22,483 nucleotides of DNA, from contig SDNN01000024.1 of assembly GCA_004524425.1 (NCBI GenBank), positions 1-22,483 on the forward strand, read 5' to 3'. The position numbers were made by a program, and so were the translations under genes. Of the stretch, positions 2,860-21,553 are shown in pieces (the stretch's first letter is position 1; the number at the start of each line of letters is the position of its first letter). The DNA is from Promethearchaeota archaeon. GTDB taxonomy: Archaea; Asgardarchaeota; Lokiarchaeia; Sigynarchaeales; SOKP01. The notes beneath the pieces were generated by a model that worked only from the letters and a program-made list of their open reading frames with translations, was not told where the DNA came from and made no database searches.

Positions 2860-2905
2860 ATAACAAAAATAAAAATCAAAAATAAATATAGTAGGAGTTG
2901 ATAAA

Positions 2906-3301
2906 ATGCCAAATAATAAGAAAAAGGTATTGATTGTTGATGATGCTCTGTTTACGAGAAACATGCTAAAAAATATCTTGAATAAGACTGGATATTGTGA
3001 AGTTGTCGGTGAAGCTGAAAATGGAATTCAAGCAGTTGAATTATATAAAAAATTAAAACCAGATTTAGTCACCATGGATTTAGTAATGCCAGAACAAGGA
3101 GGTATAGAAGCAACTGAAGAGCTCATAAAGACCGATCCAAAAGCACTAATAGTAGTGGTATCCGCATTAGGGCAAGAGGCATTAGTTCTCGAAGCGGCCA
3201 AAAAAGGAGCAAAGGATTTTATTCAAAAACCTTTTAAAAAAGAACAGATCTTAGAAGTCATGGAACGTATCCTATTGAAAAAGAAAACAGGTAATAACTA
3301 A
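2906..3301 (+). CDS. cheY: CheY-type response regulator
   Basis: This is a stand-alone receiver domain of 131 residues, the usual CheY length. The acidic pair D12/D13 (VLIVDD), phospho-acceptor D58 (TMDLVMP), S86 (VVVSALG) and K108 (FIQKPF) are all present, so phosphorylation by the adjacent CheA is expected. The ribosome site GGAG-TTGAT sits just before the ATG. In archaea with an archaellum, CheY talks to the motor through CheF. Neither CheF nor archaellum genes appear in this window, so the downstream target is unknown. Confidence 0.93.
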   Translation: MPNNKKKVLIVDDALFTRNMLKNILNKTGYCEVVGEAENGIQAVELYKKLKPDLVTMDLVMPEQGGIEATEELIKTDPKALIVVVSALGQEALVLEAAKKGAKDFIQKPFKKEQILEVMERILLKKKTGNN

Positions 3302-3332
3302 ATAATGACATTAAATACTTTAAGGTGATAAA

Positions 3333-5429: not shown

Positions 5430-5480
5430 AATTTTTTAGAAAAATAAAAATTTAAAAATGTAAATTGGAGGAACGACACG

Positions 5481-7526
5481 ATGGGATTTAAAAAAATTAA
5501 CAAAGAAGAATTAGAAACTAAAAGTGGTCCTTGCTTTATTGGAATGCCTTTAAGAAGAGCATTGGGAAAGGATCTACAAATAGATGTTGAATCTTTAGAA
5601 GCAAAACAAGGACATTCAATGGGAACTTCTTCTAATATTTTTATTAAAAATGAAGAAGTTTTAGAATTTCAATACGATTATGCTGGAAAACGCAAATCAT
5701 TAACAGGTGCTGGAAACATTTTAATTTCCAACATGTCTGATAAAGATAGAATATGGGATGCTAAATTAAAATTTTCTGGTTCAGAATTCATTAATATTGA
5801 AGCTGGAGACGATGTTCATTTAGGAATATTCGAGCCAAATTCAACTAAAACCATAAATTACGAGATAATCAATACCAATGAAATTGATGACATGCTTGAA
5901 ATTACTGAGGAAATCGAAGTAATGAATGAGGAAATTGAATTATATCAAGATAGACCACAAGATTCAGAAGATTTAGTAAATAAAATTATAAGTAGTGAAG
6001 AGGATAAAAAATTTCTACTTTTACAAGGAAAAGAAAATAGAATAAAATTCACAATTATTTTAGAAAATATTTCTCCTCATGCTTTGGAGAATATAAAATT
6101 CAAAAAACAATTTTCAAAAAGCTTTTTTGGACTTCAATGGGAGTCTCAAATTCATACAAATATAGACGTTAAAGGAGATAGTCTAAATTGGACTGTTAGT
6201 GAACTGAGACCTGGAGCCGGAGTAAGACTCATCATTTACGCAAAAATTATACCTAAAAATAAAGAAGCGATTAGAACTGGAAAAATTGAAATCTCATATA
6301 ACTTAAAAGAAAGGAATTTTTCAGGTACTGAAATCGAGGAATTTTCAGCATATTCTCACGCCATGCATGCTATACATAAAATTGAAGAAGAAGATAATCC
6401 AAATCATTGGCAGTGCTTATTTAAATTTGAAAATCATTGTGATTTTCCTATAAAATTGAAATCTATCCTTGTTTCAGATAAGTCAAAATCAAATACATAC
6501 TTGGATTTGAATTTTGATCCATCCAACAAGGAGAGGATAATACTTCCAGGAGGTAAATTTCTATCAGATAAATGGAAGATTATAGATAAGGATGAACCTA
6601 AATTTTCGAGAAAAATTGAGTATTCAATCGATTATGACGTGCAACAAAAATCTACTATATCAACTCAAATTGATGATTATAAATTCGAATTAGTAGACGT
6701 TGAGATTAAAAAAGATATATCTAAAGAGGAAATCAAATCCTTTGAAGAATCAGAATTGAATAGTAAAGTCATCATAAAAAACATGGGAACTATACCTATA
6801 GATTCAATTTTGATAAAAGAAATGATTCCAAAAAATTTCTTACCACCTGAAGATTTGGTTAATTTAAAAATAAAAAGCTCGAAAAAGACATTCAAACCAG
6901 ATGATTATCATGTCTTAATCGAACCTAAAGATAATGATCCTGCAAAAGAACATATATTAGAAGTGAGGATCAATCCAAGTAACAATCATCTTAAACATGC
7001 AATAAGTGTGAATGATTTCATTGAATTGGAGTATACTATTAAAGCTGTAAATCCTGATAACACTTTAAAGTACGATTTTCCCTTAGAAATAGAATCTTAT
7101 TACATGAAGAGTACCAATGGCATTCAAAGCGATTTAAAAGAATATTATCGCATAAATACTCAATTGGATCAATCTGAAAAACCAAATATAAAAATATCTC
7201 ATAGACGTCGTAAGATCACGATTGAAAAAGAAATATTTCCGGGTAAGAACATGGATGAATTTTCCATTAGTATAACGGTTAAGAACCTTTCAAATATAGA
7301 AATTAAAAATGTAGACCTTTCGGATAATTTCCCAGATACTTTCAAATTAATATCATCAAATGTCGAAAAGAAGCTTGAAAAACCTAATAAAGATGGTTTC
7401 TATACTATTTCTTTTGTAATAGATAAAATTTTGCCATATCAGGAAAAAGAAATAACATATTATTTAAAGAATGAAAGTGGAAAACAAATTCAATATTCAG
7501 AATTAGAATCGTATCTATATGGATAA
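5481..7526 (+). CDS. Large beta-sandwich repeat protein within the che cluster, unrecognised
   Basis: The product has 681 residues, a strong ribosome site (GGAGG) and no signal peptide or membrane segment, so it should be cytoplasmic. I see about five related units of the type hydrophobic strand, xxNxS/G, I-x-N/S-I, then D/E-x-x-P, as in DUF11/CARDB-like immunoglobulin-type repeats. They lie near residues 78-130 (AGNILISNMSD), 187-275 (FTIILENISPHALENIKF), 310-390 (CLFKFENHCDFPIKL), 428-540 (KVIIKNMGTIPIDSILIKEMIP) and 594-665 (SISITVKNLSNIEIKNVDLS). These folds are usually found outside the cell, often in surface proteins; here one lies between cheA and cheC genes. A scaffold or adaptor role is possible, but no function is recognisable. 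The N-terminal 70 residues (GPCFIGMPLRRALGK) fit no family I know. Confidence 0.6.
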   Translation: MGFKKINKEELETKSGPCFIGMPLRRALGKDLQIDVESLEAKQGHSMGTSSNIFIKNEEVLEFQYDYAGKRKSLTGAGNILISNMSDKDRIWDAKLKFSGSEFINIEAGDDVHLGIFEPNSTKTINYEIINTNEIDDMLEITEEIEVMNEEIELYQDRPQDSEDLVNKIISSEEDKKFLLLQGKENRIKFTIILENISPHALENIKFKKQFSKSFFGLQWESQIHTNIDVKGDSLNWTVSELRPGAGVRLIIYAKIIPKNKEAIRTGKIEISYNLKERNFSGTEIEEFSAYSHAMHAIHKIEEEDNPNHWQCLFKFENHCDFPIKLKSILVSDKSKSNTYLDLNFDPSNKERIILPGGKFLSDKWKIIDKDEPKFSRKIEYSIDYDVQQKSTISTQIDDYKFELVDVEIKKDISKEEIKSFEESELNSKVIIKNMGTIPIDSILIKEMIPKNFLPPEDLVNLKIKSSKKTFKPDDYHVLIEPKDNDPAKEHILEVRINPSNNHLKHAISVNDFIELEYTIKAVNPDNTLKYDFPLEIESYYMKSTNGIQSDLKEYYRINTQLDQSEKPNIKISHRRRKITIEKEIFPGKNMDEFSISITVKNLSNIEIKNVDLSDNFPDTFKLISSNVEKKLEKPNKDGFYTISFVIDKILPYQEKEITYYLKNESGKQIQYSELESYLYG

Positions 7527-7584
7527 AATCAAAAAAAGCAATAAAAATAAAATCAAAATATTTTAAAAGGATGTGGATAAAAAA

Positions 7585-8448
7585 ATGAATTTTCAATATT
7601 ATGAAACTTTATCGGACAAATCTAAAAAATATCTCTCATATTTAGTGGAGCACATTGAACCTAAATTCACGGTTGATGAATTGCCCATTTTTTTTGATGA
7701 TATGAACAAAAAGCCTTTGAAACAAAATGAATCTAAGAAATTAAGGGATCTTCAAGGCTTTTTGAATATTGGAGACGACTATGAAACTACCGCAGATATA
7801 TCAAAATTATCTATTGATCAATTAAAAATGCTTTATCAAATTTTTATTAGCAGAGAATTCAACAATAAATTAGCTGTTAAATGGAGGGTCTATCAATATT
7901 TTAAATACGTGCGTGGTATATTAATCGAAAGCATGTTAGTGAACAGAACTAATTCTTCAGATATTTCAATTGACTTCATAATCGAAACAACAGAAGGTAA
8001 GATAATTCTTATTTTATGTTTTGATGTGCTTGGAGTTAACATCTATAATAAAGTAATTGAAAATATAAGGAACTTCATAGATATTCAGAAAATAATCCCT
8101 CATCGTATAATTTTAGCCACGAATAAGATTTATCGCAATATTTCAATAGAAAATCCCGTTAAATTTAACGGGACTGAAATCCTACCAGAGTTTTGGGTAG
8201 AGTGGATTGAAACTAATAAACCATTTGAAGGAGAGGACCTTCTAATAGTGAATAATACCGAATTAAAAGTAGCAGGTTTTAATTTTTCAAGCACTGATGA
8301 TCTATTGGATTTCGTGTTTGAAAACTCTGATGGGGGACAAGTCTCGATCTTTAGACAAAGGGATTTCTTTTCAGCATCATCTGATACTGATATCCCAGAA
8401 ATTTATTTGATATGGAAAGGAATTATGTTGAGAGAGGGAAATTTGTAA
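7585..8448 (+). CDS. Unrecognised cytoplasmic protein in the che cluster
   Basis: I prefer the ATG at 7585 because GGATGTGG (7569-7576) then lies at the right distance and the context resembles the cheY and cheA starts. A GTG at 7573 would overlap that site. The product has 287 residues. Residues 1-100 are polar and mostly helical. Residues 105-215 alternate strand and helix (SSDISIDFIIETTEGKIILI, then HRIILATNKIYRNISI, then EILPEFWVEWIE) in a way that faintly recalls the restriction-endonuclease-like fold. The lysine of a D/ExK site is not evident, so nuclease activity is doubtful. The C-terminal part (FVFENSDGGQVSIF) is unassigned. It starts 58 bases after the beta-sandwich gene and ends 19 bases before the CheW-CheC fusion, so it is surely in the same transcript. 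No function is proposed. Confidence 0.55.
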   Translation: MNFQYYETLSDKSKKYLSYLVEHIEPKFTVDELPIFFDDMNKKPLKQNESKKLRDLQGFLNIGDDYETTADISKLSIDQLKMLYQIFISREFNNKLAVKWRVYQYFKYVRGILIESMLVNRTNSSDISIDFIIETTEGKIILILCFDVLGVNIYNKVIENIRNFIDIQKIIPHRIILATNKIYRNISIENPVKFNGTEILPEFWVEWIETNKPFEGEDLLIVNNTELKVAGFNFSSTDDLLDFVFENSDGGQVSIFRQRDFFSASSDTDIPEIYLIWKGIMLREGNL

Positions 8449-8467
8449 ACGATAGGTGAGTAAAAAA

Positions 8468-10405
8468 ATGATTCAAACACAATTTTCAGACAATGTTAAT
8501 GCAGTCATTATAAAGATAAAAAATGAAAACTATTTATTTGAAGTAGATCATGTAAAGGAAATTTATGTTCCTGAGGAAAATATCATTCCTGTGCCGTTAG
8601 CTAATAAGTGCATTGTAGGCATTATCGATATTAGAAAAGATATATACACGATTCTTTCACTTAGAAAAATTATCTATGAAGGTGAATTTGATCACAATCT
8701 AAATGGCACATCTCGTCTTCTTCTAATTGAAGTTAATGGAATGAATATAGCTTTTTTAGTTGATTCTGTAGTAGGGGTAAGGGAAATTCCTAAATCAGTC
8801 TTTAACACTAATGGATCTATAGTGAAAACGAATATTGACTTAAAATATGTTAAATCAATTGCCAATTTTAACAACCAGTCATTTATATTGCTAAATATTT
8901 ATTCTTTGATTGAGCCTTTCATTAAATCAATCGAAGGTAAACCTAATGTCATGCCAGAAGTTCCAAAAGTTTTGAATAAACCAAGAATTCGACCAGAAAT
9001 TAGTACGGACTCTAAAGTAAAATCTAATGTGATAATTACCCCCAAAACAAAAAAGATTAAAAAACAGGTAAGAGTTCCCGGAGATAAATTAGTTCTTAGT
9101 CCAGAACAGCATGACCTCCTCAGAGAAGTAGGAAATGTGGGAGCGGGAAACGCGGTCACTGCACTCTCCAGATTAATAAAGAAAAAAATTGAAGTCAATC
9201 TTACGGATGTCGGAATAATATCATTTGATCAATTGAATACACAATTTGGTGGTCCTAAGCAAAAGGTTTGTGGTATTTTTTCCAATATTAGTGAACCATC
9301 TCAATCAACAATTTTACAAGTATTTGACATGAAACCTTTATTAAAGCTCATAGCGACCTTTATTGGAGATAAATCAAAAATTGATCCTGAGAAAGTAAAG
9401 GTGAAAGGTGATCTTGATGAATATGCAATTTCCACGATAACTGAAATGGGTAACATCATGGCAGGTCATTATGCATCCGCATTATCTGACCTACTTGGAA
9501 TGAAAATGATGATAAACATTCCTGAATTTGCCATGGTTGAGGCAGAAATGCTTGGAAGTTTTCTTAAAAGAGAATTGGCTGAAATGACGGATTATGTCAT
9601 GCTGATTAAAACAGCCATCAATATATCTGAATTTGAACTCTCGGGATTTTTCTTCTTAATTCCAGATGTTGATACTTTGGAGACCTTTTTTAACAAATTG
9701 GGTATAAAATATGAAGAAGGTACCATTATAGCTAAAGAAAAATCAGAGATCATTACAGTAAGTGATATAAAACTTACTGAAGTCCAGAGAGATGCTTTGC
9801 AAGAAGTTGGTAATATTGGCGCTGGGAATGCTGCCAATGCTCTCGCTCAAATGATTAATAAGAGAGTGGATATCAATATTCCATCAGTTGAGATGGTAGA
9901 ACTGGATAAATATGCTAATAAAATAAGCAAAAAGAACGAAAAACTCTTGGTTGCGTGGAGTAATATTACTGGAAAAACAAGAGCCACAATTCTTTCGATA
10001 TTTAATATCAGTGATATTATCGATTTAACTGCCATCATATTAGATGATAAAAAGAAAAAGCAAATTGACCTACGGAGAAAGATTGAAACTATTAAAGATT
10101 TCCCTCTGATATATAGAAGTGCCATGAGTGAATTGGGACATATACTCGGCAGTCATTATACTACAGCAATAGGGGATTTATTGGGAATAAGATTAATGAC
10201 TGATCCGCCTGATATGAGCATAGATACTGGAAAGCAATTGTTCAATATTTTAAAGGAAGAAATTGGTTTGTTAAAGAAACTTTCCTTGGTAATAACCACG
10301 AATATTATCATCACAGACTTCAAAATCACTGGTACATTTCTATTTATCCCAAATCTAGACACTTTACAGATTTTATTGGATGCGTTGTCAAAATTCTATG
10401 CATGA
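8468..10405 (+). CDS. CheW-CheC-CheC fusion protein
   Basis: With the ATG at 8468 (AGGTGAG at 8454-8460 is its ribosome site; a GTG at 8456 lies inside that site) the product has 645 residues. Residues 8-155 form a CheW domain (VGIIDIRKDIYTILSL; IAFLVDSVVGVREI). A basic, proline-containing linker (155-210) follows, then two CheC units (about 210-415 and 435-645). CheC phosphatase sites follow D/S-xxx-E-xx-N with a proline 23 residues later. The four half-sites are D216/E220/N223 with Thr246 instead of Pro; S322/E326/N329/P352 intact; D442/E446/N449/P472 intact; and S551/E555/His558/P581 with Asn replaced. So each CheC unit keeps one perfect half-site. The predicted role is removing phosphate from CheY-P at the receptor-kinase array, to which the CheW part would tether it. 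Proteins with a similar coupling-plus-phosphatase logic exist in bacteria (CheV, FliY), but I do not recognise this exact architecture. Confidence 0.9.
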   Translation: MIQTQFSDNVNAVIIKIKNENYLFEVDHVKEIYVPEENIIPVPLANKCIVGIIDIRKDIYTILSLRKIIYEGEFDHNLNGTSRLLLIEVNGMNIAFLVDSVVGVREIPKSVFNTNGSIVKTNIDLKYVKSIANFNNQSFILLNIYSLIEPFIKSIEGKPNVMPEVPKVLNKPRIRPEISTDSKVKSNVIITPKTKKIKKQVRVPGDKLVLSPEQHDLLREVGNVGAGNAVTALSRLIKKKIEVNLTDVGIISFDQLNTQFGGPKQKVCGIFSNISEPSQSTILQVFDMKPLLKLIATFIGDKSKIDPEKVKVKGDLDEYAISTITEMGNIMAGHYASALSDLLGMKMMINIPEFAMVEAEMLGSFLKRELAEMTDYVMLIKTAINISEFELSGFFFLIPDVDTLETFFNKLGIKYEEGTIIAKEKSEIITVSDIKLTEVQRDALQEVGNIGAGNAANALAQMINKRVDINIPSVEMVELDKYANKISKKNEKLLVAWSNITGKTRATILSIFNISDIIDLTAIILDDKKKKQIDLRRKIETIKDFPLIYRSAMSELGHILGSHYTTAIGDLLGIRLMTDPPDMSIDTGKQLFNILKEEIGLLKKLSLVITTNIIITDFKITGTFLFIPNLDTLQILLDALSKFYA

Positions 10406-10418
10406 TACCTTTTAGAGC

Positions 10419-10425
10419 TTATAAA
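10419..10425 (+). promoter_or_regulatory. Possible internal TATA box before the gelsolin-like gene
   Basis: TTATAAA lies in the 80-base gap between the CheW-CheC-CheC gene and the gelsolin-like gene, the widest gap in the first half of the cluster. It predicts a start near 10448 and could give the second half of the cluster its own transcript. The sequence is AT-rich, so support is weak. Confidence 0.25.
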
Positions 10426-10442
10426 GATAAATCAATTAAATA

Positions 10443-10450
10443 ATTTTTTT
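10443..10450 (+). terminator. Possible poly-U terminator inside the cluster
   Basis: A run of eight T (10443-10450), followed shortly by another T-rich run (10456-10463), lies just after the CheW-CheC-CheC gene. T-tracts on the coding strand act as terminators in archaea. It may reduce read-through into the gelsolin-like gene. Confidence 0.25.
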
Positions 10451-10485
10451 CAAATTTTTATTTCATTAGATTCCATGTAGAGTCT

Positions 10486-11067
10486 TTGGAAGATAATAGA
10501 ATAATAAAAAATCACATCAAAAAAATGTCAAATAATAGTTATAATGAATATATATACCAGATCGTAGGAGAATCCATCAAGTTAAATCCCAAGAAGATTT
10601 TTGAACCTGAAGAGGTTTATTTAATAGTAGATAAAGATTTAAAACTTATCTGGATTTGGTCAGGAAAACATTCACGCTTATTTCATAGGTACATGGCTGC
10701 CAATTGGGCAGGTAAGCTAAAATCAAAAAAAAAGTTTTATAATTTTAAATATGAGCTTGTCAAAGAAGGAAGAGAACCCGAGGATTTTTTAGTTATTTAT
10801 GATGAAATAAAAAATCAAAGAGCTGATTTGCAATATCCTGGACAGTCTAGGAACCATAGAAAAATTCATAAAACACATGTTAAACCTGGATTGACGAAAA
10901 ATTCCTCCAGAATTCAATTTACGCAACCTGTTGATCAACTATCAAAATTAGATCAGTCCCGAATAAAAAGCCTATTAGCTGAAATCAAAGAAATCCAAAT
11001 GCACATGAAATATTCCTTTGAACATCTAGAGCGAAGGATTGCGGAAATTGAAAAAATTTTAGACTAA
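10486..11067 (+). CDS. Gelsolin-like domain protein with C-terminal coiled coil
   Basis: Residues 38-108 match the gelsolin repeat pattern: a first strand VYLIVDKD, the central IWIWSGKHS (family form: iyvWvGk.ss), a long helix LFHRYMAANWAGKL, and the closing KEGREPEDFLVIY (family form: v.EG.EP.eF). A basic linker (about 115-150) and a predicted coiled coil (155-193, IKSLLAEIKEI and LERRIAEIEKIL) follow. Gelsolin-family proteins bind, cap or sever actin, and Asgard gelsolin-like proteins are known to act on actin. Here a single domain is fused to a probable oligomerisation helix. The start is uncertain: TTG 10486 lacks a clear ribosome site, and the next candidate is ATG 10525, which still keeps the domain whole. 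CheR begins 14 bases downstream, so co-expression with chemotaxis genes is very likely. Calcium and actin contacts cannot be judged from sequence. Confidence 0.72.
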   Translation: MEDNRIIKNHIKKMSNNSYNEYIYQIVGESIKLNPKKIFEPEEVYLIVDKDLKLIWIWSGKHSRLFHRYMAANWAGKLKSKKKFYNFKYELVKEGREPEDFLVIYDEIKNQRADLQYPGQSRNHRKIHKTHVKPGLTKNSSRIQFTQPVDQLSKLDQSRIKSLLAEIKEIQMHMKYSFEHLERRIAEIEKILD

Positions 11068-11081
11068 GAGGGGATTCTTAA

Positions 11082-12173
11082 ATGATTAGTTTTGATAATA
11101 TTAAAATTCATGAGCGTCCTTATGATAAACTAATCAATTTATTGGGACAAGAAACAAAATTAAATTTCTTTTATTATAGAAGGAATTTTATAGAGAGAAG
11201 AATAAAATCGCGAATGATTCGTACCAATTGTTATACTCTCAAATCCTATTATAATTACATTTTGGCGAACAAGGATGATGAGATTAAGAAATTCTTAGAC
11301 AATTTTAATATTAACTATTCTTATTTCTTTAGAAATTGGGAAGTTTTTGATCTTTTTCAGACTTTATTTTTAAGAAGCTTGAATGTTGATGAAGATTCAA
11401 TTATTACTGATTTAAGACCTAATCCATTAAAAATTCGAAAAAAAAAGGCTAAATCCAAAAAGAAAAAAGGACAAAAGAGAAAAGTAGTTCCTCATAATAA
11501 CTTAAAACAGCTAAAAATAAGAAATACCTTAAATAAGCCTGTAATGATCAAGGATCCTAAACCTATAAAGAGGTTTTATAGTGAAAATTCAATTTCTTAT
11601 CTAAAACTCACTTCTTTACATGAAAAAGTGAAATCCTGGAAAAAAAAACAGAACCCTATTAACATTTGGTCTTGTCCTTGTGCCTCGGGGGAGGAGCCTT
11701 ATTCCATTGCCATGATCTTAGACAATCTAAGGCATCAAATCCCAGATTTTCCAGATTACGATATTAAAGCATCGGACATAGACCAAGAAGCACTTATTAA
11801 AGCCAAAAATGGAATTTATAGTAAGGAATCAACAAAAGATATTTCAAGTTATTTTGAAAATAGGTATTTTTCGAAAACTCCTGATTATTTCGGATATAAA
11901 TACTTATTAAAGAAAGAAATCATAAATCAAGTTCACTTTATCAAAGAAGATATTACTAAATGGCAAGATTGTAAGGTAAAATTTGATGTAATTTTCTTTA
12001 GATACTTGCTCATTTATTTTGACCGTGAAAATAGAAACAATGTAATAAAAATTATTGAAAATCAATTACGTAAAGGTGGATTATTGTTTTTAGGTAAAAC
12101 AGAAACATTGTTCAATTCGGAGTCGGCTTTAAAATTGGTTGATTCAAGAGATCATATATACATGAAACAATAA
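11082..12173 (+). CDS. cheR: CheR chemoreceptor glutamate methyltransferase with basic insertion
   Basis: CheR transfers methyl groups from S-adenosylmethionine to receptor glutamates. The N-terminal helical domain (about 12-100) includes RRNFIERRIKSRM and NINYSYFFRNWEVF. The catalytic domain begins at 194 with IWSCPCASGEEPYSIAM (SAM-binding motif I), then SDIDQEAL (231-238) and FDVIFFRYLLIYFD (301-314). The family usually has FCRNVLIYF here, so Asn is Tyr308. The protein has 363 residues against roughly 270-290 for typical CheR. The excess is an insertion of about 80 residues between the domains (about 105-180) that includes a very basic stretch at 118-134. Ribosome site GAGGGGA precedes the ATG. 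No receptor gene lies in the window, so its substrates are elsewhere. Confidence 0.9.
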   Translation: MISFDNIKIHERPYDKLINLLGQETKLNFFYYRRNFIERRIKSRMIRTNCYTLKSYYNYILANKDDEIKKFLDNFNINYSYFFRNWEVFDLFQTLFLRSLNVDEDSIITDLRPNPLKIRKKKAKSKKKKGQKRKVVPHNNLKQLKIRNTLNKPVMIKDPKPIKRFYSENSISYLKLTSLHEKVKSWKKKQNPINIWSCPCASGEEPYSIAMILDNLRHQIPDFPDYDIKASDIDQEALIKAKNGIYSKESTKDISSYFENRYFSKTPDYFGYKYLLKKEIINQVHFIKEDITKWQDCKVKFDVIFFRYLLIYFDRENRNNVIKIIENQLRKGGLLFLGKTETLFNSESALKLVDSRDHIYMKQ

Positions 12174-12186
12174 TCCTCTTCTAGAA

Positions 12187-12288
12187 ATGCATGAAAGAAC
12201 AGAATTGCTTATTAAAGATTTAACACCTTATAAGAAAGCAATATGGACAAAAGGGTTGATGAAAGCAAAAAAAATTAAAAATAAATAA
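12187..12288 (+). CDS. Possible 33-residue small protein between cheR and cheD
   Basis: A short frame from ATG 12187 to TAA 12288 fits almost exactly in the 117-base gap between cheR and cheD. It reads MHERTELLIKDLTPYKKAIW and then a lysine-rich tail. Its composition (aromatic, leucine and lysine mix) is protein-like, and its stop lies two bases before the cheD ATG, which would suit translational coupling because cheD has no ribosome site of its own. No ribosome site is visible for this frame either. It may be spurious. Confidence 0.3.
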   Translation: MHERTELLIKDLTPYKKAIWTKGLMKAKKIKNK

Positions 12289-12290
12289 AA

Positions 12291-12857
12291 ATGTTAGTTT
12301 GGTCTACAAAAATGGATAAATTCTACAAGAATAATCAATCGATACAACAAAACAAGGACATCGGAAAGGTCTTACAAATAGGACATTATTTAATAATTAA
12401 TTCTAAAAAAGCTAGTGAGCAAAATAGAATTGCCATATATGGACTAGGGTCGTGTGTTGCACCAATAATAATTGATAAACAAAATAAATATGCAGGAATT
12501 TCTCATATTTTACTTCCTAGTGCCAATGGGAGGAATTCAATGGAGTTTCCTCACAAGTATGCTAATCTTTCAATTAAATTTTTAATAAAGGAATTAATGA
12601 AACACGGATCAAATACAAGAGATCTCATTGCCATCATTATCGGGGGTGCAAATATTTTCCAGAATGAGGATTGGATTGTAGGAAACGAAAATGTACAAAT
12701 GGTTGAGCGTGAGTTGAAAAAATTTCAAATTAATATTGTAAAAAGAGAAATTGGAGGATCTAAAGGAAGGATTATCATATTCGACCCTAAATCATTCACA
12801 ATTTATAGTAAATTAACGGGGGAGAAAGAATATAGGATTTTATGGAATTTATCATGA
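12291..12857 (+). CDS. cheD: CheD chemoreceptor glutamine deamidase
   Basis: CheD deamidates receptor glutamines and, with CheC, forms a complex tuned by CheY-P. The 188-residue product shows the catalytic cysteine C55 in GLGSCVAP, histidine H72 in GISHILLP, and the closing signature GGSKGRIIIFDPKS (155-168). From memory of the Thermotoga enzyme, a catalytic-triad threonine sits six residues before the cysteine; here that position is Ile49, so activity may be altered or another residue may serve. The start is unclear: ATG 12291 or ATG 12312 (residue 8), neither with a Shine-Dalgarno. It lies between cheR and cheC, the usual archaeal neighbourhood. Confidence 0.9.
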   Translation: MLVWSTKMDKFYKNNQSIQQNKDIGKVLQIGHYLIINSKKASEQNRIAIYGLGSCVAPIIIDKQNKYAGISHILLPSANGRNSMEFPHKYANLSIKFLIKELMKHGSNTRDLIAIIIGGANIFQNEDWIVGNENVQMVERELKKFQINIVKREIGGSKGRIIIFDPKSFTIYSKLTGEKEYRILWNLS

Positions 12858-12889
12858 ATGAATCTAATTAAAATATGACGTGATCATAA

Positions 12890-13570
12890 ATGTTTAAAAT
12901 TGAAAAAAACCAATCAAACAACCATAAAAAAATCAAATTTACACCAGAACAGTTAGATGTTTTAAAAGAAATAGGAAATATAGGCTCTGGAAATGCCATC
13001 ACCGCACTTTCGAAGTTAATAGGAAAAAAAGTTGAGATGTCGTTAACATCGTTAGAGCTTACTCCTTTTTGGAAAATTCCGATATTTTTTGATGATAATG
13101 ATACTCAAGTTTTTGGAATTTTATCCCAAATACGAGAAAAAGATGAATTTAGATTAATGCAAATTTATTCTAAAGAAAGCGTCATAAGCATGATTAATTA
13201 CATCTATGAGAAAAACAAGATAAATCATGAAACTATCAACTTATTAAAAGATCTTGATAATTTCTCATTAAGTATTATTCAAGAAATAGGAAATATCTTA
13301 GCTGGACATTACACGAGTTCAATTGCTAATCTTTTATCAATTTCAATAATCCCTGATGTTCCAAACATTGCCTTAGATAATATCCAAGCATTAACAAATT
13401 CAACAATAGCTAAATATTCGCAAAAATCAGATTTAATTATTTTTATAGAAACTAAATTGAAGATTGAAGAATTAGAATTAGAGGGATTTATTTTTTTATT
13501 TGCTCCAATAAAAACGGTTAAAAATCTCCTAAAAATATTAGATCAAAAATTCAATTTTGAATCCGGTTGA
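12890..13570 (+). CDS. cheC: CheC CheY-P phosphatase
   Basis: This 226-residue stand-alone CheC is preceded by GTGATC, a good match to the archaeal anti-Shine-Dalgarno. The two half-sites are D23/E27/N30 (LDVLKEIGNIGSGNA) with Thr53 where proline is usual, and S128/E132/N135 with P158, which is complete. CheC dephosphorylates CheY-P and binds CheD, and it lies directly after cheD. With the fusion at 8468, three CheC units are encoded in one cluster. The first half-site of this protein and of the fusion share the same Pro-to-Thr change, suggesting duplication within the lineage. No FliY- or FliM-like motor segment is attached. Confidence 0.93.
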   Translation: MFKIEKNQSNNHKKIKFTPEQLDVLKEIGNIGSGNAITALSKLIGKKVEMSLTSLELTPFWKIPIFFDDNDTQVFGILSQIREKDEFRLMQIYSKESVISMINYIYEKNKINHETINLLKDLDNFSLSIIQEIGNILAGHYTSSIANLLSISIIPDVPNIALDNIQALTNSTIAKYSQKSDLIIFIETKLKIEELELEGFIFLFAPIKTVKNLLKILDQKFNFESG

Positions 13571-13619
13571 AAAATAGCAAAAAAAATAGAAGAAATGATT
13601 ATAACAAAAAGGTAGAATA

Positions 13620-14576
13620 TTGATAGGGTCTAAAACAACAATTTTAAATGAATTATTAACCAATCTTTTGGAAAGGATACCCGAGTTGTTGGCCTGTCTG
13701 GTAGTTGATTTTAATGGATTAATTATAGTCCAGCAGTCTGTTAAGGAAGTTGATGAAGAATTGGTGGGTGCAATCATGAGTGTAGTTGAACAGAACATGA
13801 ATAAGATTAAAAAGTACACTGAAACTTCTATTGGAAGTGGGAGTTTTGCGACAGATGAATTTCAGCTTTTTTATACAGAACTTGGAAAAGAACCCCCGAT
13901 GCTTTTTGTATTGGTTTCCGACCCCTCTTCTAATATTGAAAAATACATGCCATATTCTTATATAATCGCTGAGAAAATATCTCAGATTTTGACTGAAAGA
14001 GAAACTGAAACTAGCATTCCTAAAGTAAATGAAGATGGTGAATTGATCATTAATTCTCACGCAGAAAATAATGGAATCAATAAAATCTTATTAATCGGGC
14101 CATCAGAAGTAGGAAAAAGCACGCTACTGGGAATATACATGAATGGAATTTTTGAACCAAAATATAAACCAACCATAGGTATTTCATTAATTCAAAATGA
14201 ATTTCCCATTTCAAGAGACGTAAAGCTCAGAAATGTGATATTTGATTTATCAGGTTTAAAAAGTTTTGGAAAAATACGTAGATTTTATTATAAAGGAGCA
14301 AATGCCGTACTTGTTTTATTTGATTACACGAGAATAGAAACCTTAGAAAATATTAACGAATGGATTGAAGAGGCTAAACATTTTGTAAAAGATGTATCGA
14401 TCCCATATATTCTAATAGGAAATAAGATTGATTTGAGTGAAGATAGATTCTTAATGAAAACAATGGCTAAACAATTAGCTAACCAATATAAATGTCAATT
14501 TTTTGAAACCTCGGCCTTTACAGGTGAGGGTATTGATGAAGTGTTTACATTTCTCATTTCATATTTTTGTTCTTAA
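13620..14576 (+). CDS. Roadblock/LC7-small GTPase fusion protein
   Basis: The start is TTG 13620, with AAAGGT about seven bases upstream. Residues 1-128 form a Roadblock/LC7 domain (LLACLVVDFNGLIIVQQSV; EELVGAIMSVVEQNM; FQLFYTEL; MLFVLVSD). Residues 154-318 form a Ras/Arf-like GTPase: P-loop GPSEVGKST (160-168), switch I threonine T185 (KPTIG), switch II DLSGLKSF (209-216), NKID (268-271) and TSA (297-299). At the position of Ras Gln61 there is Leu213, the change that blocks GTP hydrolysis in Ras. Roadblock proteins serve as regulators or platforms for MglA and Rag-type GTPases; here both parts are in one chain. No lipid-anchor motif is seen at the C-terminus, although it ends in CS. It lies 49 bases after cheC and about 30 bases before cheB, so it belongs to the che transcript. 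Polarity or cytoskeletal signalling is a reasonable inference. Confidence 0.88.
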   Translation: MIGSKTTILNELLTNLLERIPELLACLVVDFNGLIIVQQSVKEVDEELVGAIMSVVEQNMNKIKKYTETSIGSGSFATDEFQLFYTELGKEPPMLFVLVSDPSSNIEKYMPYSYIIAEKISQILTERETETSIPKVNEDGELIINSHAENNGINKILLIGPSEVGKSTLLGIYMNGIFEPKYKPTIGISLIQNEFPISRDVKLRNVIFDLSGLKSFGKIRRFYYKGANAVLVLFDYTRIETLENINEWIEEAKHFVKDVSIPYILIGNKIDLSEDRFLMKTMAKQLANQYKCQFFETSAFTGEGIDEVFTFLISYFCS

Positions 14577-14605
14577 TAATAAATTTTAAGAAAGAGGTGG
14601 TTAAA

Positions 14606-15970
14606 GTGTCAGTAAACGTTTTAATAGCGGATGATTCGGCATTTGTAAGAAAAGTGATTTCCGATATTATTTCTAAAGATAAAAGGATTAACATAGTGGA
14701 TCACGCAGCAAATGGAAAAGAAGCCATTGAATTGGTCAAAAAACATGAACCAGATGTTTTATTATTAGACTTGTTAATGCCTAAGATGAACGGTCTTGAA
14801 GCTTTTGAACAAATCATGAACAATACACCCACAACAACAATCATTCTTTCCGCAATTAGTCCTCAGAACATGGATGCTTCAATACAAGCTTTATTAATGG
14901 GAGCATTTGATTACATTATTAAACCAGGAGGTTTAGGGGCAAAGGATTTGCCCAAATTCCGTAAGGAACTTCTCAAGAAAGTATTACTTGCATCTAAATC
15001 ACAAATTAGAAGAATTCTAAAAGAAAGCAATCTTCTTAATAGAAAAACATACATGAGACAAGAAATTGTCTCAAACGTATTTGAATTTGGGAAATATTTA
15101 AAAAATATAAAACCAATTCAAGAAGATAAAAAGGAAGTAATCCATGAAATAGAGCCTTCTTTAAAGAGTAAAAAAAAGATAAATAACAATCAAAATGTCG
15201 TAGAACATGTAAACATAAAAACAAAGAAAGAAAAAAAAAATAAAGCATGCAAGAAATCTGTTAATGATGGAACTAAAAATGAAATTAAAAAAACAAAAAG
15301 CTTCGTAATAAAAAAGAGTGGCGAAAAGAAAGCACGTTACCTTACAGAGATCGAACCTTTAAAAAAAGTAGCCTTACCTTCTAAAGTTGTTGTTATTGGA
15401 GCCAGTGTAGGAGGTCCAAGAACAATAAGAAATATCTTGAAAATGATACCAAAAAACTTGAATTGCCCACTATTAGTCGTTCAGCACCTTAATGCAAATT
15501 TTATAGAGACTTTTGTCGATACATTAAATAATTATTGCGAGATTAAGATTAAAATTGCTGAGAACAATGAGCCCATCCTTCCTGGCCATGTATACGTCGC
15601 TCCAGGAGACAGGCACATGGAAATATCTTTAAAAGGAAATAAACCATGCATTAACACTTATGAAGGTCCACCGGTCCATCACTGCATACCCAGCATCGAT
15701 ATACTATTTAATTCTGCTGCTAAGGTCTATAATAAATCAACCATGGGCATTTTATTAACCGGAATGGGAGAAGATGGAGTACTAGGACTTGGAAATATTA
15801 AAAAATCAGGGGGTATCACGATTGCAGAATCTCAACAAACTAGTGTCGTGTATGGAATGCCAAAACTAGCAGCAGAGAGAGGATATGCTGGCATCATTTT
15901 ACCAAACTATAATATTAGTGATTATATCATCAAATTTACTAAAAAGACAAAAGCAAAAGAAAAAAGTTAA
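14606..15970 (+). CDS. cheB: CheB receptor methylesterase response regulator
   Basis: I choose GTG 14606 because GAGGTGG (14594-14600) lies five bases upstream and the residues before it (from TTG 14567) are not family-like. The product has 454 residues. Residues 1-125 form a receiver domain with D9/D10, phospho-acceptor D55 (LLLDLLMP) and K106. The methylesterase domain (about 258-450) has S267 (IGASVGGP), H294 (VVQHLNA) and D390 (LLTGMGEDGV) as the catalytic triad. Between them is a long, lysine-rich linker (about 130-255), longer than usual for CheB. The enzyme removes methyl groups from receptor glutamates after CheA phosphorylates it, opposing CheR. It is the last core che gene in the cluster. 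Confidence 0.95.
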   Translation: MSVNVLIADDSAFVRKVISDIISKDKRINIVDHAANGKEAIELVKKHEPDVLLLDLLMPKMNGLEAFEQIMNNTPTTTIILSAISPQNMDASIQALLMGAFDYIIKPGGLGAKDLPKFRKELLKKVLLASKSQIRRILKESNLLNRKTYMRQEIVSNVFEFGKYLKNIKPIQEDKKEVIHEIEPSLKSKKKINNNQNVVEHVNIKTKKEKKNKACKKSVNDGTKNEIKKTKSFVIKKSGEKKARYLTEIEPLKKVALPSKVVVIGASVGGPRTIRNILKMIPKNLNCPLLVVQHLNANFIETFVDTLNNYCEIKIKIAENNEPILPGHVYVAPGDRHMEISLKGNKPCINTYEGPPVHHCIPSIDILFNSAAKVYNKSTMGILLTGMGEDGVLGLGNIKKSGGITIAESQQTSVVYGMPKLAAERGYAGIILPNYNISDYIIKFTKKTKAKEKS

Positions 15971-16027
15971 TATGATTATTGATACTAATAGTACTTTAGA
16001 GAAATTCATAAATCATTTGTAGAAAAA

Positions 16028-16046
16028 ACGTGACCTAATTTCACGT
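16028..16046. promoter_or_regulatory. Short inverted repeat upstream of the RHH-receiver gene
   Basis: ACGTGA (16028-16033) and TCACGT (16041-16046) form a perfect 6-base inverted repeat with a 7-base spacer, about 30 bases before the next gene. The next gene encodes a ribbon-helix-helix segment, a domain type that binds such palindromes, so self-regulation is conceivable. The repeat is short and could also mark the end of the cheB transcript. Confidence 0.25.
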
Positions 16047-16075
16047 GCTTAATGCAATTTTATTAGAACAAAGAG

Positions 16076-16825
16076 GTGGAGATAATCGTTACAGAGGAGG
16101 ACAAAAAATACGAGGATACAAAAAGGATTGGAATCTTAATATCTGAATCCACGAAGAAAAAATGGGAAAAATTTGTAGAAGATAAAGAATTGGCTACAGT
16201 TTCAAGGTTAATAAGAAAAGCAGTTAATTTTTATATTAATTCACAAGAAAAAATTGCATATCTAAATAACCTTTCTCTACTCTCTCATGACTTGAAAGAA
16301 CCTTTAACTTCAATTAAGGGATTTTCCCAATTAATCATTGAAAATCATGCTGATAAGTTGGATTCTGAGATTTTATTAAGATTAAAAGAAATTTATGCTC
16401 AAAGCATGTTTCTTGAACAAAAAATAAATCAGTTCTTAGATGGAATAAGTTCAGAAGGATCCCAATATGATATTTTGATAGTTGAGGATGATAACCCTAC
16501 TATATTTCTCCTGAGTGACTTTTTCAAGATAAGAGGTTTCTCAACTTTGGGTGTGAGAACAGGAGCCAGAGCAATGGAGGAAATAAATAGATCTCATCCA
16601 AAATTAGTATTATTAGATATTATTTTACCAGATATCGATGGGTATGAGATTTGTAAGAAAATTAAATCCAAAGATAACAAGAAAGAAATACCCGTCTTTT
16701 TTATAACTGCCATACCAGAATCGGAAGTGGTTAAGAAAATAGAAGATACCGGGGTTGATGGTGTATTATATAAGCCTTTTGATTTTAATGAATTTGAGCC
16801 ATTGATTAACCATCTAAAGGCATAA
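16076..16825 (+). CDS. RHH-HisKA-receiver regulatory protein
   Basis: Three modules are visible. Residues 17-55 resemble a ribbon-helix-helix DNA-binding segment (RIGILISESTKKKWEKFVED, then SRLIRKAVNFYI). Residues 64-124 are a HisKA-like dimerisation helix pair with an intact H-box histidine H71 (LSHDLKEPLTSIKGF). Residues 131-245 form a receiver with D138/D139, phospho-acceptor D181, T211 and K233. There is no HATPase domain, so it cannot phosphorylate itself; an external kinase such as CheA might act on it. It is 105 bases after cheB on the same strand, so membership of the cluster is possible but not certain. The start is odd: the only canonical start, GTG 16076, lies inside the GAGGTGG motif. 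By analogy with cheB, translation would begin near 16085 at an ATC codon. Confidence 0.75.
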   Translation: MEIIVTEEDKKYEDTKRIGILISESTKKKWEKFVEDKELATVSRLIRKAVNFYINSQEKIAYLNNLSLLSHDLKEPLTSIKGFSQLIIENHADKLDSEILLRLKEIYAQSMFLEQKINQFLDGISSEGSQYDILIVEDDNPTIFLLSDFFKIRGFSTLGVRTGARAMEEINRSHPKLVLLDIILPDIDGYEICKKIKSKDNKKEIPVFFITAIPESEVVKKIEDTGVDGVLYKPFDFNEFEPLINHLKA

Positions 16826-18444: not shown

Positions 18445-19566
18445 ATGTCATTTGAAGCAGATTTTCAAATAATTAAAAATCTAACTGAAATTCAAGCATG
18501 TAGCGGAAATGAGAACAAGATTCGTCAATATATTACAAATATAGTGAAAGATTATTGCGATAATGTTGAAACTGATATTTTAGGGAATTTGTTTTGTCAT
18601 ATTCGCGGAAAATCGGGATCAGATAAGCAAAAATTGAGAATATTATTTGATGCTCACATGGATGAAAAATCATGATTTAAGATCATGGTTCATCAAATTG
18701 GCTTTATGGTCCGATATATTGATGAAAATGGATTTATCCGCTTTTCACAAGTAGGTGGTCAGAATCCACGTATTCTGCCTGGACAAAAAGTAACAATTCA
18801 TTCAAGTCTGGGAGAAGATGTAATCGGCATTATTGGTGAAAAACCAATTCATTTACTCAGCAATGAAGAAAAAAAAAAGGTATCTAAATTTGAAGACTTA
18901 TTTATCGACTGTGGAATGACTAATAAAGAGGAAGCATTGCAGCATGTTTCCATTGGGGATTATATCACGTTGAAGCAAGAATGCATGGCATTTAGGGGAA
19001 AAAAAAGAATATGCTCTAAAGCTTTTGATGATAGAGCTGGTTGTTTTGTGTTAATAAAATTAATAATGGAACTCTCACGAAAAAAAGAAGATTTAGACAA
19101 GGATTTAATTTTTATCTTTGCTGCCCAAGAAGAGATTGGTGTGAGAGGCGCAACTGTTGGTTCTTATAAAATATCTCCTGATTTAGCAATAGCAGTGGAG
19201 GTGACTCATTCTATTGACTTTCCAGGTGTTAAAAAGGATAAATATTATGAATGTAAATTGGGATCTGGCACCTCAATATCAGTTGGACCGAATTTATTCT
19301 CTAAACTTACCAAAATCCTGATCGATACGGCTAAGGAAGAGAATATTCCATATGTCTTAGAAGCTGAGGCTCGACCAACCCCTACAGATGCTAGAGCGAT
19401 ACAAATGACCAAATCTGGTATACCATGTGCTTTAGTCTCTATTCCGCTTAGGTACATGCATACTAATATAGAAGTTATAGAATATCAAGACATCTTGCAT
19501 ACGATAAATTTACTAAAATCCTTCATAAAAAAAGATTTGAGACCATCAATTCATATGGCACCCTAA
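18445..19566 (+). CDS. M42-family aminopeptidase, interrupted by a 30-nt insertion with in-frame TGA
   Basis: Both halves are in the same frame and together form a complete M42 metallo-aminopeptidase. Residues 1-74 end in LFDAHMDE (metal ligand H71, catalytic D73). The second half begins IGFMVRYIDENGFIRFSQVG. The family reads AHMDE(V/I)GFMV without a break, so ten codons (18667-18696 in one placement) are extra, and one is TGA (18673-18675). Without them the product has 363 residues, with DD in AFDDRAG (185-186), EE in AAQEEIG (219-220) and H329 in RYMHT, so every expected active-site element is kept. Such enzymes form large cytoplasmic complexes that trim peptides. The extra bases, with flanks, fold as a bulge-helix-bulge and may be spliced from the mRNA. 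Alternatives are a recent pseudogene, an assembly artefact, read-through, or reinitiation at ATG 18685 (no ribosome site). An AT-rich TATA-like stretch upstream suggests a leaderless start at ATG 18445. Confidence 0.8.
18661..18697 (+). other. Candidate bulge-helix-bulge intron (30 nt) in the M42 peptidase mRNA
   Basis: Seen directly: GATG (18661-18664) pairs with CATC (18691-18694), giving a 4-bp helix. A 3-nt bulge AAA (18665-18667) follows on the 5' strand. Then AATCATGAT (18668-18676) pairs with ATCATGGTT (18682-18690) over 9 bp with one G-U, closing on the 5-nt loop TTAAG. On the 3' strand, CATC is followed by AAA (18695-18697). Two 3-nt bulges on opposite strands separated by 4 bp is the archaeal splicing-endonuclease motif, with the polarity found in tRNA introns. 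Cutting after the second A of each bulge removes 18667-18696 and joins GATGAA to ATTGGC, restoring DEIG. The outer helix is almost absent (one G-U), so it is a relaxed motif. Confidence 0.5.
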
Positions 19567-19574
19567 AAGATGGT

Positions 19575-20198
19575 TTAAATGTTAAGTTGATTGACGAATA
19601 AGGCTTTTTTTTTTAATAATTTGCCAAATTTGATGAGAGTGGGTTCTATATCGTCTTTATCTTTTATCCCTGTAAGGATCACTTTGCCGTTATTGAAAAC
19701 TAAAAAAACACATTTAACAGGCTTAATTGATTTGTATATTAAGGCAGGAAATATTTCAGGCTCATATATAACGTTTTCTATTAACAATGCTGTTAGGTTT
19801 AAATCAATTTTATCATCGTAACTAGCACTAACAACTATATTTACGACTTCGGGTTCTACTTCACTCATTTTAAAATGGGAGTTAAGAGAGATATTTATTT
19901 CCGTAATCAATTTCAATAATACCAATTCAATATGATTAAACAATTTCAATCCAGTTAAAATTAGATTTCCACTGCTAAAAAGAATGATGACACATTTAGG
20001 ATCTGTAAACCTAATAAATAAACCTGGAAAACGGTTTTTAAATTCTGTATTGTCCCACTTTTTAGAAATCTCTTCAATATTTAAAGTCAGCTTTTCTTGC
20101 TTCAAATCATCAGTGATAAACAGGTTCGCTTTAACCACTATATTTTGAATGGTATAGGTCAGACTTCTTGTTTCATCCGACTTTTTCTTTGATTCCAT
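19575..20198 (-). CDS. tbp: TATA-binding protein, divergent paralogue
   Basis: The product has 207 residues from ATG 20198; a TTG at 20219 would add seven. The saddle-like pair of TBP repeats is clear: repeat 1 about 14-105 (IQNIVVKANLF; RFPGLFIRF; IILFSSGNLILTG) and repeat 2 about 114-205 (VVNIVVSASYD; YEPEIFPALIYK; VFLVFNNGKVILTG). The four phenylalanines that kink TATA DNA appear to be kept (F57, F74, F150, F168). The sequence is far from typical archaeal TBP: repeat 1 has about nine extra residues (DDLKQEKLT), and common motifs such as PKtA and GAK are changed. It would recruit TFB and RNA polymerase at a subset of promoters if it is an additional TBP. Its 3' end meets the M42 gene head-on. 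Confidence 0.88.
   Translation of the reverse strand: MESKKKSDETRSLTYTIQNIVVKANLFITDDLKQEKLTLNIEEISKKWDNTEFKNRFPGLFIRFTDPKCVIILFSSGNLILTGLKLFNHIELVLLKLITEINISLNSHFKMSEVEPEVVNIVVSASYDDKIDLNLTALLIENVIYEPEIFPALIYKSIKPVKCVFLVFNNGKVILTGIKDKDDIEPTLIKFGKLLKKKALFVNQLNI
19605..19614 (+). terminator. Poly-U terminator for the M42 peptidase gene
   Basis: Ten T in a row lie about 40 bases after the peptidase stop. The tract is inside the antisense of the 3' end of the tbp coding region, where it encodes a lysine run. The two convergent genes are separated by only eight bases, so overlap of the transcripts' 3' ends is expected. Confidence 0.45.
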
Positions 20199-20416
20199 TG
20201 AATTTCTATAATATGCCAATTGAATATAATAAAATTTCCAAAGAATAATTAAATTAAGTTAATATTTAATTCTAATATGTTTTCGATGGTCTTGAAGAAA
20301 CATAACGAATGAAAAGAAAAAACGTCATGGTTCATATTTCTTTAATTCGAAAACTTAATTATGTTAAGAAATACAATTAAATAAAAGTAATATTTATTTT
20401 TTCTAATTACTTTAGC

Positions 20417-20437: not shown

Positions 20438-21553
20438 ATGAAAATCATGAAGATGGAATTCTTAGACTTACTCGTTAAAAAAAAACTGGGTTCTTGGTCA
20501 TTGCTGTCAATAATCTTAATTTTAAGTTTTCTTATAGGATTGTATGTTCCGTCCTTCGAATTTACTATGGGAATTTTAATTGCGTCGCTTTCTATCTCCC
20601 TTATACTCATTATTAATTATCTTCTTTTGAAAATCTCATCAAAAAGATATCCTATTTCCATGAAAAAAACAACCTTTTCAATATGGATGATGATATCAGT
20701 TAATTCATTATTTGCTTTTATGATTGGAATTACCATTCCTTACATGGAATCTGATGTGAGGTATAATATGGCCCTTGTAATGATCCCTTTATCGATATTA
20801 CTGCATCTAGTATTAGTTGATAGATTTTATTTTTTAATGAATTCAAGCGTGGATAATAACAGCGATTCCAAGGAAAAATTTTCTAAAATAAAGGATAGTT
20901 CAATGCCGGTAATTGAATTTGAAGGAAAGAATTACATCTTTACCCTTAGATCTATAATTATACTAGCAATTGGAACACCCTTATTATCTTATTTAATTTA
21001 CTTGTTTTTTGATAATCAGATGAATTATTGGTTACATGAAATCGTAGTTAAACAAACGGTCTACTTCTTGAATGTTCTTTTTGATATGAATGCGAGAGCA
21101 GAATACGTACCAAGTGGTAAATATCATTGGAGATTTGTCATACCTAACAGAGGTCAGATTTATTTTGAGACTTTTTGTACAGGAGTACAAGCTATTTGCG
21201 TATTCGCGGGAATTATCATTTTAATTCCTCACTCTCTTGATAAAAAAACTAACGAAGATATAGTATGGAGAAAAACTAAATCATTGATCATCTCATCTTT
21301 AATCTTTTATGTGGTGAATATCATTAGAATGATAATCCAGATTTATTTATTTTATATAGGATACGCCTGGGAGGATATTCATTATTCGATTAGTGCTGCA
21401 AGTTCATTTATAGCTGCTATTATAATATTATTACTGCATAAATGGATACCTGAATTTATTATCTCAATTATTTATACTGGTAATTTAATTGGTAAAAAAT
21501 TAAAAGAGTCAAGGGGAATACAAAATGATGATAATATTAAGGATTCTGTTTAA
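20438..21553 (+). CDS. Archaeosortase/exosortase-family membrane protein
   Basis: The 371-residue product has about eight hydrophobic segments (roughly 19-38, 42-65, 80-102, 109-128, 170-192, 250-265, 283-306, 312-336). The exosortase catalytic residues are visible: Cys247 in FETFCTGVQAICVFAG, Arg297 in VVNIIRMIIQIYL and His315 in WEDIHYSISAAS. These enzymes cleave surface proteins with a C-terminal sorting signal and probably attach them to a lipid. The N-terminal half (to about 160) carries extra membrane segments and a charged loop (135-155). Possible starts are ATG 20438, 20447 and 20453; the TATA spacing favours 20447. No substrate with a PGF-CTERM-like tail is encoded in this window. 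The family call rests on the C/R/H triad and topology. Confidence 0.72.
   Translation: MKIMKMEFLDLLVKKKLGSWSLLSIILILSFLIGLYVPSFEFTMGILIASLSISLILIINYLLLKISSKRYPISMKKTTFSIWMMISVNSLFAFMIGITIPYMESDVRYNMALVMIPLSILLHLVLVDRFYFLMNSSVDNNSDSKEKFSKIKDSSMPVIEFEGKNYIFTLRSIIILAIGTPLLSYLIYLFFDNQMNYWLHEIVVKQTVYFLNVLFDMNARAEYVPSGKYHWRFVIPNRGQIYFETFCTGVQAICVFAGIIILIPHSLDKKTNEDIVWRKTKSLIISSLIFYVVNIIRMIIQIYLFYIGYAWEDIHYSISAASSFIAAIIILLLHKWIPEFIISIIYTGNLIGKKLKESRGIQNDDNIKDSV

Follow-up and report, generated by a model that had tools for sequence, protein, structure and literature searches.

The closest described counterpart of the locus considered here is the intron in the pre-mRNA of cbf5, an RNA pseudouridine synthase gene, in Desulfurococcales and Sulfolobales; it is described, in the sections consulted of PMC2738675, as bulge–helix–bulge (BHB)-like but mostly unconventional, dependent on EndA and lost from some lineages. 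The insert reported below resembles it in its BHB-like structure and in the predicted cut between the second and third bulge residues (PMC2738675, same sections), whereas the cbf5 hosts are crenarchaeal and ours are Asgard archaea, with metabolic genes carrying inserts of 30–32 nt. In Haloferax, EndA also acts on an mRNA, cleaving a BHB in the 5′-UTR of HVO_1309, although this is 5′-UTR processing rather than the joining of exons inside a coding region proposed here (PMC7714728, sections consulted); the same sections of that 2020 paper state that, apart from the 5′-UTR site described there, cbf5 has the sole BHB intron so far reported in an mRNA. With archaeal tRNA and rRNA BHB introns the insert has in common the motif and the presumed enzymes, but its host RNA is a messenger and its excision restores a reading frame. 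Cytoplasmic splicing of HAC1/XBP1 mRNA uses IRE1, not EndA. It too is the tRNA-style splicing of a messenger, but it is eukaryotic and stress-regulated (PMC4090602, sections consulted). No report of an Asgard pre-mRNA BHB intron was recognized in the journal literature searched, largely open-access papers seen mostly as titles and abstract openings. The mechanism itself is already known from crenarchaeal cbf5; the Asgard hosts and the metabolic genes appear to be new.

Here, we describe a 30-nt insert in an Asgard M42 aminopeptidase gene that, as judged from its sequence, is very probably a BHB pre-mRNA intron spliced by EndA and RtcB.

The M42 gene and its insert

The window, that is, the whole stretch of DNA analyzed, is a contig of 22,483 bp (G+C 30%) whose M42 protein has Asgard archaea (Promethearchaeota, Lokiarchaeota) as its best named relatives in a protein database search. 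The gene runs from the ATG at 18445 to the stop at 19564–19566. Unspliced, it comprises 76 codons to ...DAHMDEKS followed by TGA, after which the frame is open to the gene end; read straight through, the product is ...HMDE-KS-stop-FKIMVHQ-IGFMV. The insert (18667–18696, AAATCATGATTTAAGATCATGGTTCATCAA, 30 nt) separates D73-E74 from I75-G76 in a gene that is intact elsewhere, and subtracting it leaves 363 codons that exactly restore the conserved DAHMDEIGFMV. The joined 363-aa protein matches Pfam Peptidase_M42 (PF05343) at 2.2e-89, and its residues 1–360 align to the gene of genome G107 in 1080 nt with a net gap of zero. The features of the locus are as follows.

18445..18666, + strand: M42 5′ exon (74 codons, ending ...DAHMDE), from translation, alignment to intronless orthologues and conserved neighbors
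18661..18664, + strand: 5′ strand of the central helix, GATG (4 bp), from computed pairing
18665..18667, + strand: 5′ bulge AAA, predicted cut between 18666 and 18667; a cut after the second bulge base restores the frame
18667..18696, + strand: putative 30-nt intron with an in-frame TGA at 18673–18675; the same site is interrupted in six other database sequences
18668..18690, + strand: inner hairpin AATCATGAT-TTAAG-ATCATGGTT, from folding and computed pairing
18691..18694, + strand: 3′ strand of the central helix, CATC, from computed pairing
18695..18697, + strand: 3′ bulge AAA, predicted cut between 18696 and 18697, from translation of the joined product
18697..19566, + strand: M42 3′ exon (IGFMV... 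to stop), from translation and the match of the joined protein to PF05343

In register 0, the canonical BHB cut that gives GAT GAA ATT GGC, the insert and its flanks adopt a 3-4-3 BHB in which GATG and CATC pair at all four positions, both bulges are AAA and a 9-bp inner helix closes a 5-nt loop (one T.G pair would extend the helix to 10). Cutting in any of the four registers from −2 to +1 leaves the same joined product. The outer helix consists of one pair, where the strict canonical hBHBh′ form has several, and the structure is thus a relaxed BHB. In the minimum-energy fold, T18690 pairs with A18665 instead of A18668, which lengthens the central helix to 5 bp (3-5-3); shifting this single pair gives the canonical 3-4-3 form. 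When only register 0 was considered, the insert was shuffled 400,000 times without once matching the observed central and inner pairing; under a looser rule (central helix of 4 bp, inner helix of at least 9 bp, any equivalent register) two of 400,000 qualified. Folding z-scores for the site were −3.27 (41 nt), −2.21 (49 nt) and −1.83 (62 nt). Across the whole window, motifs with an inner helix of at least 9 bp and a length of 15–80 number nine on the + strand, two of which are accounted for by the M42 site, and four on the − strand. Thirty nucleotides are too few to house a group I or II catalytic core; at gathering thresholds Rfam gave no match in the window, and no self-splicing group I or II core was found.

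An earlier note on this DNA had placed 30 extra bases, including TGA, between DE and IG and had claimed that cuts at the standard positions restore the DEIGFMV frame. Both points are confirmed: removal yields 363 residues colinear with the intronless orthologues, reading D-E-I-G-F-M-V exactly as the intronless homologues do. Its count of a 4-bp helix, two AAA bulges, a 9-bp inner helix and a 5-nt loop is right for register 0, and its two cautions, that the AAA repeats allow several cut positions (registers −2 to +1, one product) and that the outer helix is nearly absent (one pair), both stand.

The same site in other M42 sequences

Searched against 5.8 billion proteins, the 76-aa 5′ half retrieved three matches. 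One is the window itself; of the other two, P0123 is uninterrupted and P0122 terminates in ...DAHMDENS and a stop. A profile built from seven N-termini retrieved 14 from the protein database. Seven of them (P0121, which is the window, P0122, P0124, P0126, P0128, P0129 and P0130) stop 0–2 codons past DE, ending in KS, NS, KP or KL and a stop, or in a bare stop; three (P0123, P0125 and P0127) continue uninterrupted into IG, and the rest either end before the site (P0131) or diverge before it (P0132–P0134). The other interrupted 5′ halves are 64–72% identical to P0122 and come from several sources. Matching 5′ and 3′ halves occur on equal-sized contigs as P0124/P0095 (2664), P0126/P0098 (9810) and P0128/P0099 (110099), and from contig size and source we infer that each such pair sits on one shared contig. 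The 3′ half P0099 starts MVRQIGFMVRY, and its counterpart in the window MVHQIGFMVRY. Uninterrupted DxHxDEIG is present in 88 of the 102 closest M42 proteins; ten of the other 14 begin at or after the site and four (360–379 aa) are without the exact motif. A scan of viral contigs with P0099 found no relative.

In a quick M42 tree (103 rows, SH-aLRT support only, 33 open forks) the seven split rows, with four rows holding a 3′ half only left out, need seven changes and so do not cluster, and three of the split rows fill just 20% of the columns. P0092 (which starts MDEIG) and P0093, P0094 and P0097 (which start at an internal M) were left out of the split-gene count because their 5′ halves were not seen; the 5′ part of P0092 was looked for and not found. 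Between the split P0095 and the unsplit P0010 there is 92% identity over 283 residues, so that gain or loss was recent there. Two further observations concern individual database entries: the 3′ halves P0092 and P0095 are 97% identical and start at different Met codons (MDEIG versus MVR), and P0129 and the unsplit P0020 are on contigs of equal size (2521).

Covariation in the M42 insert was assessed from the translated halves of one relative, P0128/P0099, whose residues K and P (5′) and V and R (3′) permit all four central and the first six inner pairs, as do 64 of 5000 random residue quadruples. Because the introns may share ancestry and this relative departs from the window at just two of the four residues, we regard the pairing as supportive rather than decisive. 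An Asn at the start of the intron, as in P0122 and P0126, would be incompatible with the 3′ strand considered here.

Codon comparison of the window gene with six intronless orthologues shows the same order of differences in both exons, third position > first > second (against L087, 0.26/0.15/0.42 at positions 1/2/3 in exon 1 and 0.22/0.09/0.51 in exon 2). Exon 2 differs from L087 by 96 synonymous and 75 nonsynonymous codons. In exon 1, nonsynonymous differences exceed synonymous ones against each of the six orthologues (22 to 18 against L087), and constraint therefore looks weaker there.

Two further genes with BHB inserts

In 1.95 Mb of G002, a Lokiarchaeota genome, we searched for 3-4-3 BHBs able to reconnect interrupted frames. 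Measured against control bulge sizes, the search gave no overall excess (341 candidates versus 293–332 for the control geometries). The counts by subset were 5 versus 0–2 in one strict subset, 10 versus 4–14 with an inner helix of at least 6 and an outer helix of at least 4, 57 versus 36–53 with at least 5 and at least 3, and 25 versus 20–24 in a further subset; in the first 1.2 Mb, with an inner helix of at least 7 and an outer helix of at least 2, there were 12 versus 5, 4 and 6. A paralogue-spanning test did not discriminate (19 versus 14–24). Most of the other listed candidates were judged by eye to be adjacent genes or chance, and only the inserts in cooS and in an FMN oxidoreductase gene were accepted after homologue checks. 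A scan of contig C41 of G116 and 160 kb of contig C9 of G002, run without control geometries, gave nothing convincing beyond cooS. ARAGORN also gives intron calls in G002. The accepted inserts are listed below.

G002:C6:396802-396833, − strand: cooS 32-nt BHB insert, from the BHB scan and a homologue check
L214, about 1756-1787: cooS 32-nt BHB insert of G116, from a homologue search
L283, G002:C6:164800-166700, − strand: 30-nt BHB insert with TGA in the FMN oxidoreductase (Old-Yellow-Enzyme-type) gene, from the BHB scan and homologues

The cooS insert, the hit that stood out in the G002 search, is 32 nt long and occupies the same site in two Lokiarchaeota species, G002 and G116; the joined product matches TIGR01702 (CO dehydrogenase catalytic subunit) at 1.2e-217. 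In G002 the outer, central and inner helices have 8, 4 and 8 bp, and in G116 the outer helix has 6. Between the two species the inner helix remains paired at eight of eight positions through three double and two single changes with no breaks. In the central helix a single change preserves pairing at one position and G116 has an A.C at another; the G116 outer helix carries one end break. Shuffles as good as observed numbered two of 400,000 for G002 and 62 of 400,000 for G116. Among the 46 Asgard genomes with a cooS match at E <= 1e-60, 43 are free of stops across the site (G151 among them being a 36% paralogue), and the G065 sequence stops short of the site at a contig end.

The FMN oxidoreductase insert was chosen by eye among the 57 listed candidates (controls 36–53). 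Its joined product matches PF00724 at 6.5e-68, and the spliced stretch CQLYHGGAYAFPQIIG is identical in four of the six other genomes shown (G003, G137, G139 and G157), G108 and G109 differing from it in residues and not in length. The junction splits a conserved Tyr codon between T and AC and leaves a single workable register; with the junction inside a codon, it is the RNA that must be joined. The outer helix has 3 bp, and 60 of 400,000 shuffles were as good as this insert. The gene is matched at E <= 1e-90 in 106 genomes, with the insert in G002 only among the matches listed. Two interrupted FMN oxidoreductase genes were considered and rejected as intron candidates: that of G191 (L282) has a single TGA replacing a W codon and that of G097 (L281) one TAA at a contig end, both judged to be point stops, which are probably point changes or errors rather than introns.

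EndA and RtcB in relatives

EndA (PF01974) is present in 226 of 227 Asgard genomes, mostly in two copies, and RtcB in four of six genomes tested, with none found in G108 and G109; for the host of the contig itself, both enzymes are presumed from these relatives. The EndA sequences examined were the better-scoring copies of G107, G108, G109 and G116 and the second copies of G002, G107 and G116. The first copy (G108) has as its best matches 3p1z and 3ajv, which we take to be crenarchaeal enzymes, and it keeps the presumably catalytic His of GxxHxPFIVH. For the second copy, taken from G002, the best match is 1a79, and Ser occupies the aligned His place. G107 and G116 each carry one His-keeping and one His-lacking copy. 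The presence of two unlike subunits suggests, at the level of sequence, that the Asgard enzyme is hetero-oligomeric. Enzymes of the hetero-oligomeric kind cleave the unconventional cbf5 BHBs (PMC2738675, sections consulted). Only the first copy was found in G109 and only the second in G002, where a search for the catalytic type found none; that copy may be absent from the G002 assembly. G002 is a 4.6-Mb genome with two candidate mRNA introns, yet with the second type of EndA alone.

Proposed mechanism and alternatives

In the mechanism that we favor, the M42 precursor RNA would fold into the relaxed BHB and EndA, probably of the two-subunit kind, would cut between the second and third base of each 3-nt bulge. 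RtcB ligase would then join the exons to give GAT-GAA-ATT-GGC (DEIG), and the intron would probably be released as a 30-nt circle.

The in-frame stop could also mean that a random insertion broke the M42 gene, or that the insert is unreal and stems from assembly. In favor of this, an M42-type match occurs in 203 of the 227 Asgard genomes and none carries an internal stop among the matches listed; exon 1 has its nonsynonymous excess, and in the tree, where the median end branch is 0.14, four split rows comprise both halves and three of these have values of 0.31–0.35. Yet seven 5′ halves, from several sources, break off at the identical codon, comparable exact, structured inserts occur in cooS and the FMN oxidoreductase gene, and both M42 exons are open with a third-position bias that a freely decaying gene would not be expected to show. 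The shared site and the coding bias disfavor pseudogenization, and we consider decay or assembly error highly improbable. The comparison with relatives that the earlier note had asked for points the same way, with intronless orthologues and six further sequences broken at the identical codon; its preference for an mRNA intron over a pseudogene is supported by this shared site, the conserved neighbors, the third-position bias, the enzymes of relatives and the two further genes.

Programmed ribosome bypassing, of which phage T4 gene 60 is an example, would have the ribosome take off at GAA and land beyond the hairpin. A hairpin is indeed present, and all seven 5′ halves run into a stop 0–2 codons past their final exon codon, but bypassing calls for matched take-off and landing codons: in M42 the pair would be GAA and CAA, in cooS the last exon codon TAT would face CCA (G002) or TTA (G116), and in the FMN oxidoreductase gene the Tyr codon is itself split in its single register. 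These mismatches, together with a junction inside a codon, place bypassing on the same very low footing as decay. A touch more doubtful again is a genuinely split enzyme, in which polypeptides of 76 and about 284–293 aa with separate starts would assemble. Databases do annotate two ORFs, and both the window and P0099 have an in-frame ATG four codons ahead of the junction; the break, however, falls within the HxDE-IG motif, annotation of the other 3′ halves begins only at the Met inside GFM, the BHB structure and its cut sites would be left unexplained, and P0095, a 3′ half, shares 92% identity with the unsplit P0010, the break site and the unsplit sister genes being what tell against this reading. 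Scarcely credible at all, in our view, is removal at the DNA level by programmed excision, or RNA processing by an enzyme other than EndA: a sequence by itself does not name its enzyme, but BHB geometry with standard cut positions recurs in three genes and EndA is nearly universal in the phylum.

Beyond splicing of the M42 messenger by EndA and RtcB, we think it likely, with less assurance than for the M42 insert itself, that ordinary protein-coding genes of Asgard archaea (M42, cooS, FMN oxidoreductase and probably more) harbor a scattered set of short introns that EndA splices and that are under active gain and loss. If so, a pre-mRNA splicing system based on protein enzymes would exist in the lineage nearest to eukaryotes and archaeal mRNA splicing would be broader than believed. 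Gain and loss of introns in protein genes could then be studied directly in the closest archaeal relatives of eukaryotes, and gene callers would be breaking real Asgard genes into false ORFs.

Gene neighborhood

The M42 gene is flanked by a gene for a CxxCxxCC protein and a TBP-family gene. In L002 the order is macro domain, CxxCxxCC, M42, TBP-like and sortase-like (macro and sortase named by eye), L001 and L003 hold the same set minus the TBP-like gene, and M42 is uninterrupted in all three. The adjoining TBP-family protein of the window (19575–20219, − strand) matches PF00352 at 8.5e-33, and relatives of it that are 42–56% identical sit beside M42 in G002, G109, G154 and G104. A multi-pass membrane protein at 20438–21553 (+ strand), exo/archaeosortase-like by eye, is conserved near M42 in relatives. 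Elsewhere, a long chemotaxis-type cluster (CheW/CheY/CheA/CheR/CheD/CheB/CheC-like by eye) extends over 2341–16825 and includes, at 13620–14576, a small-GTPase-like protein.
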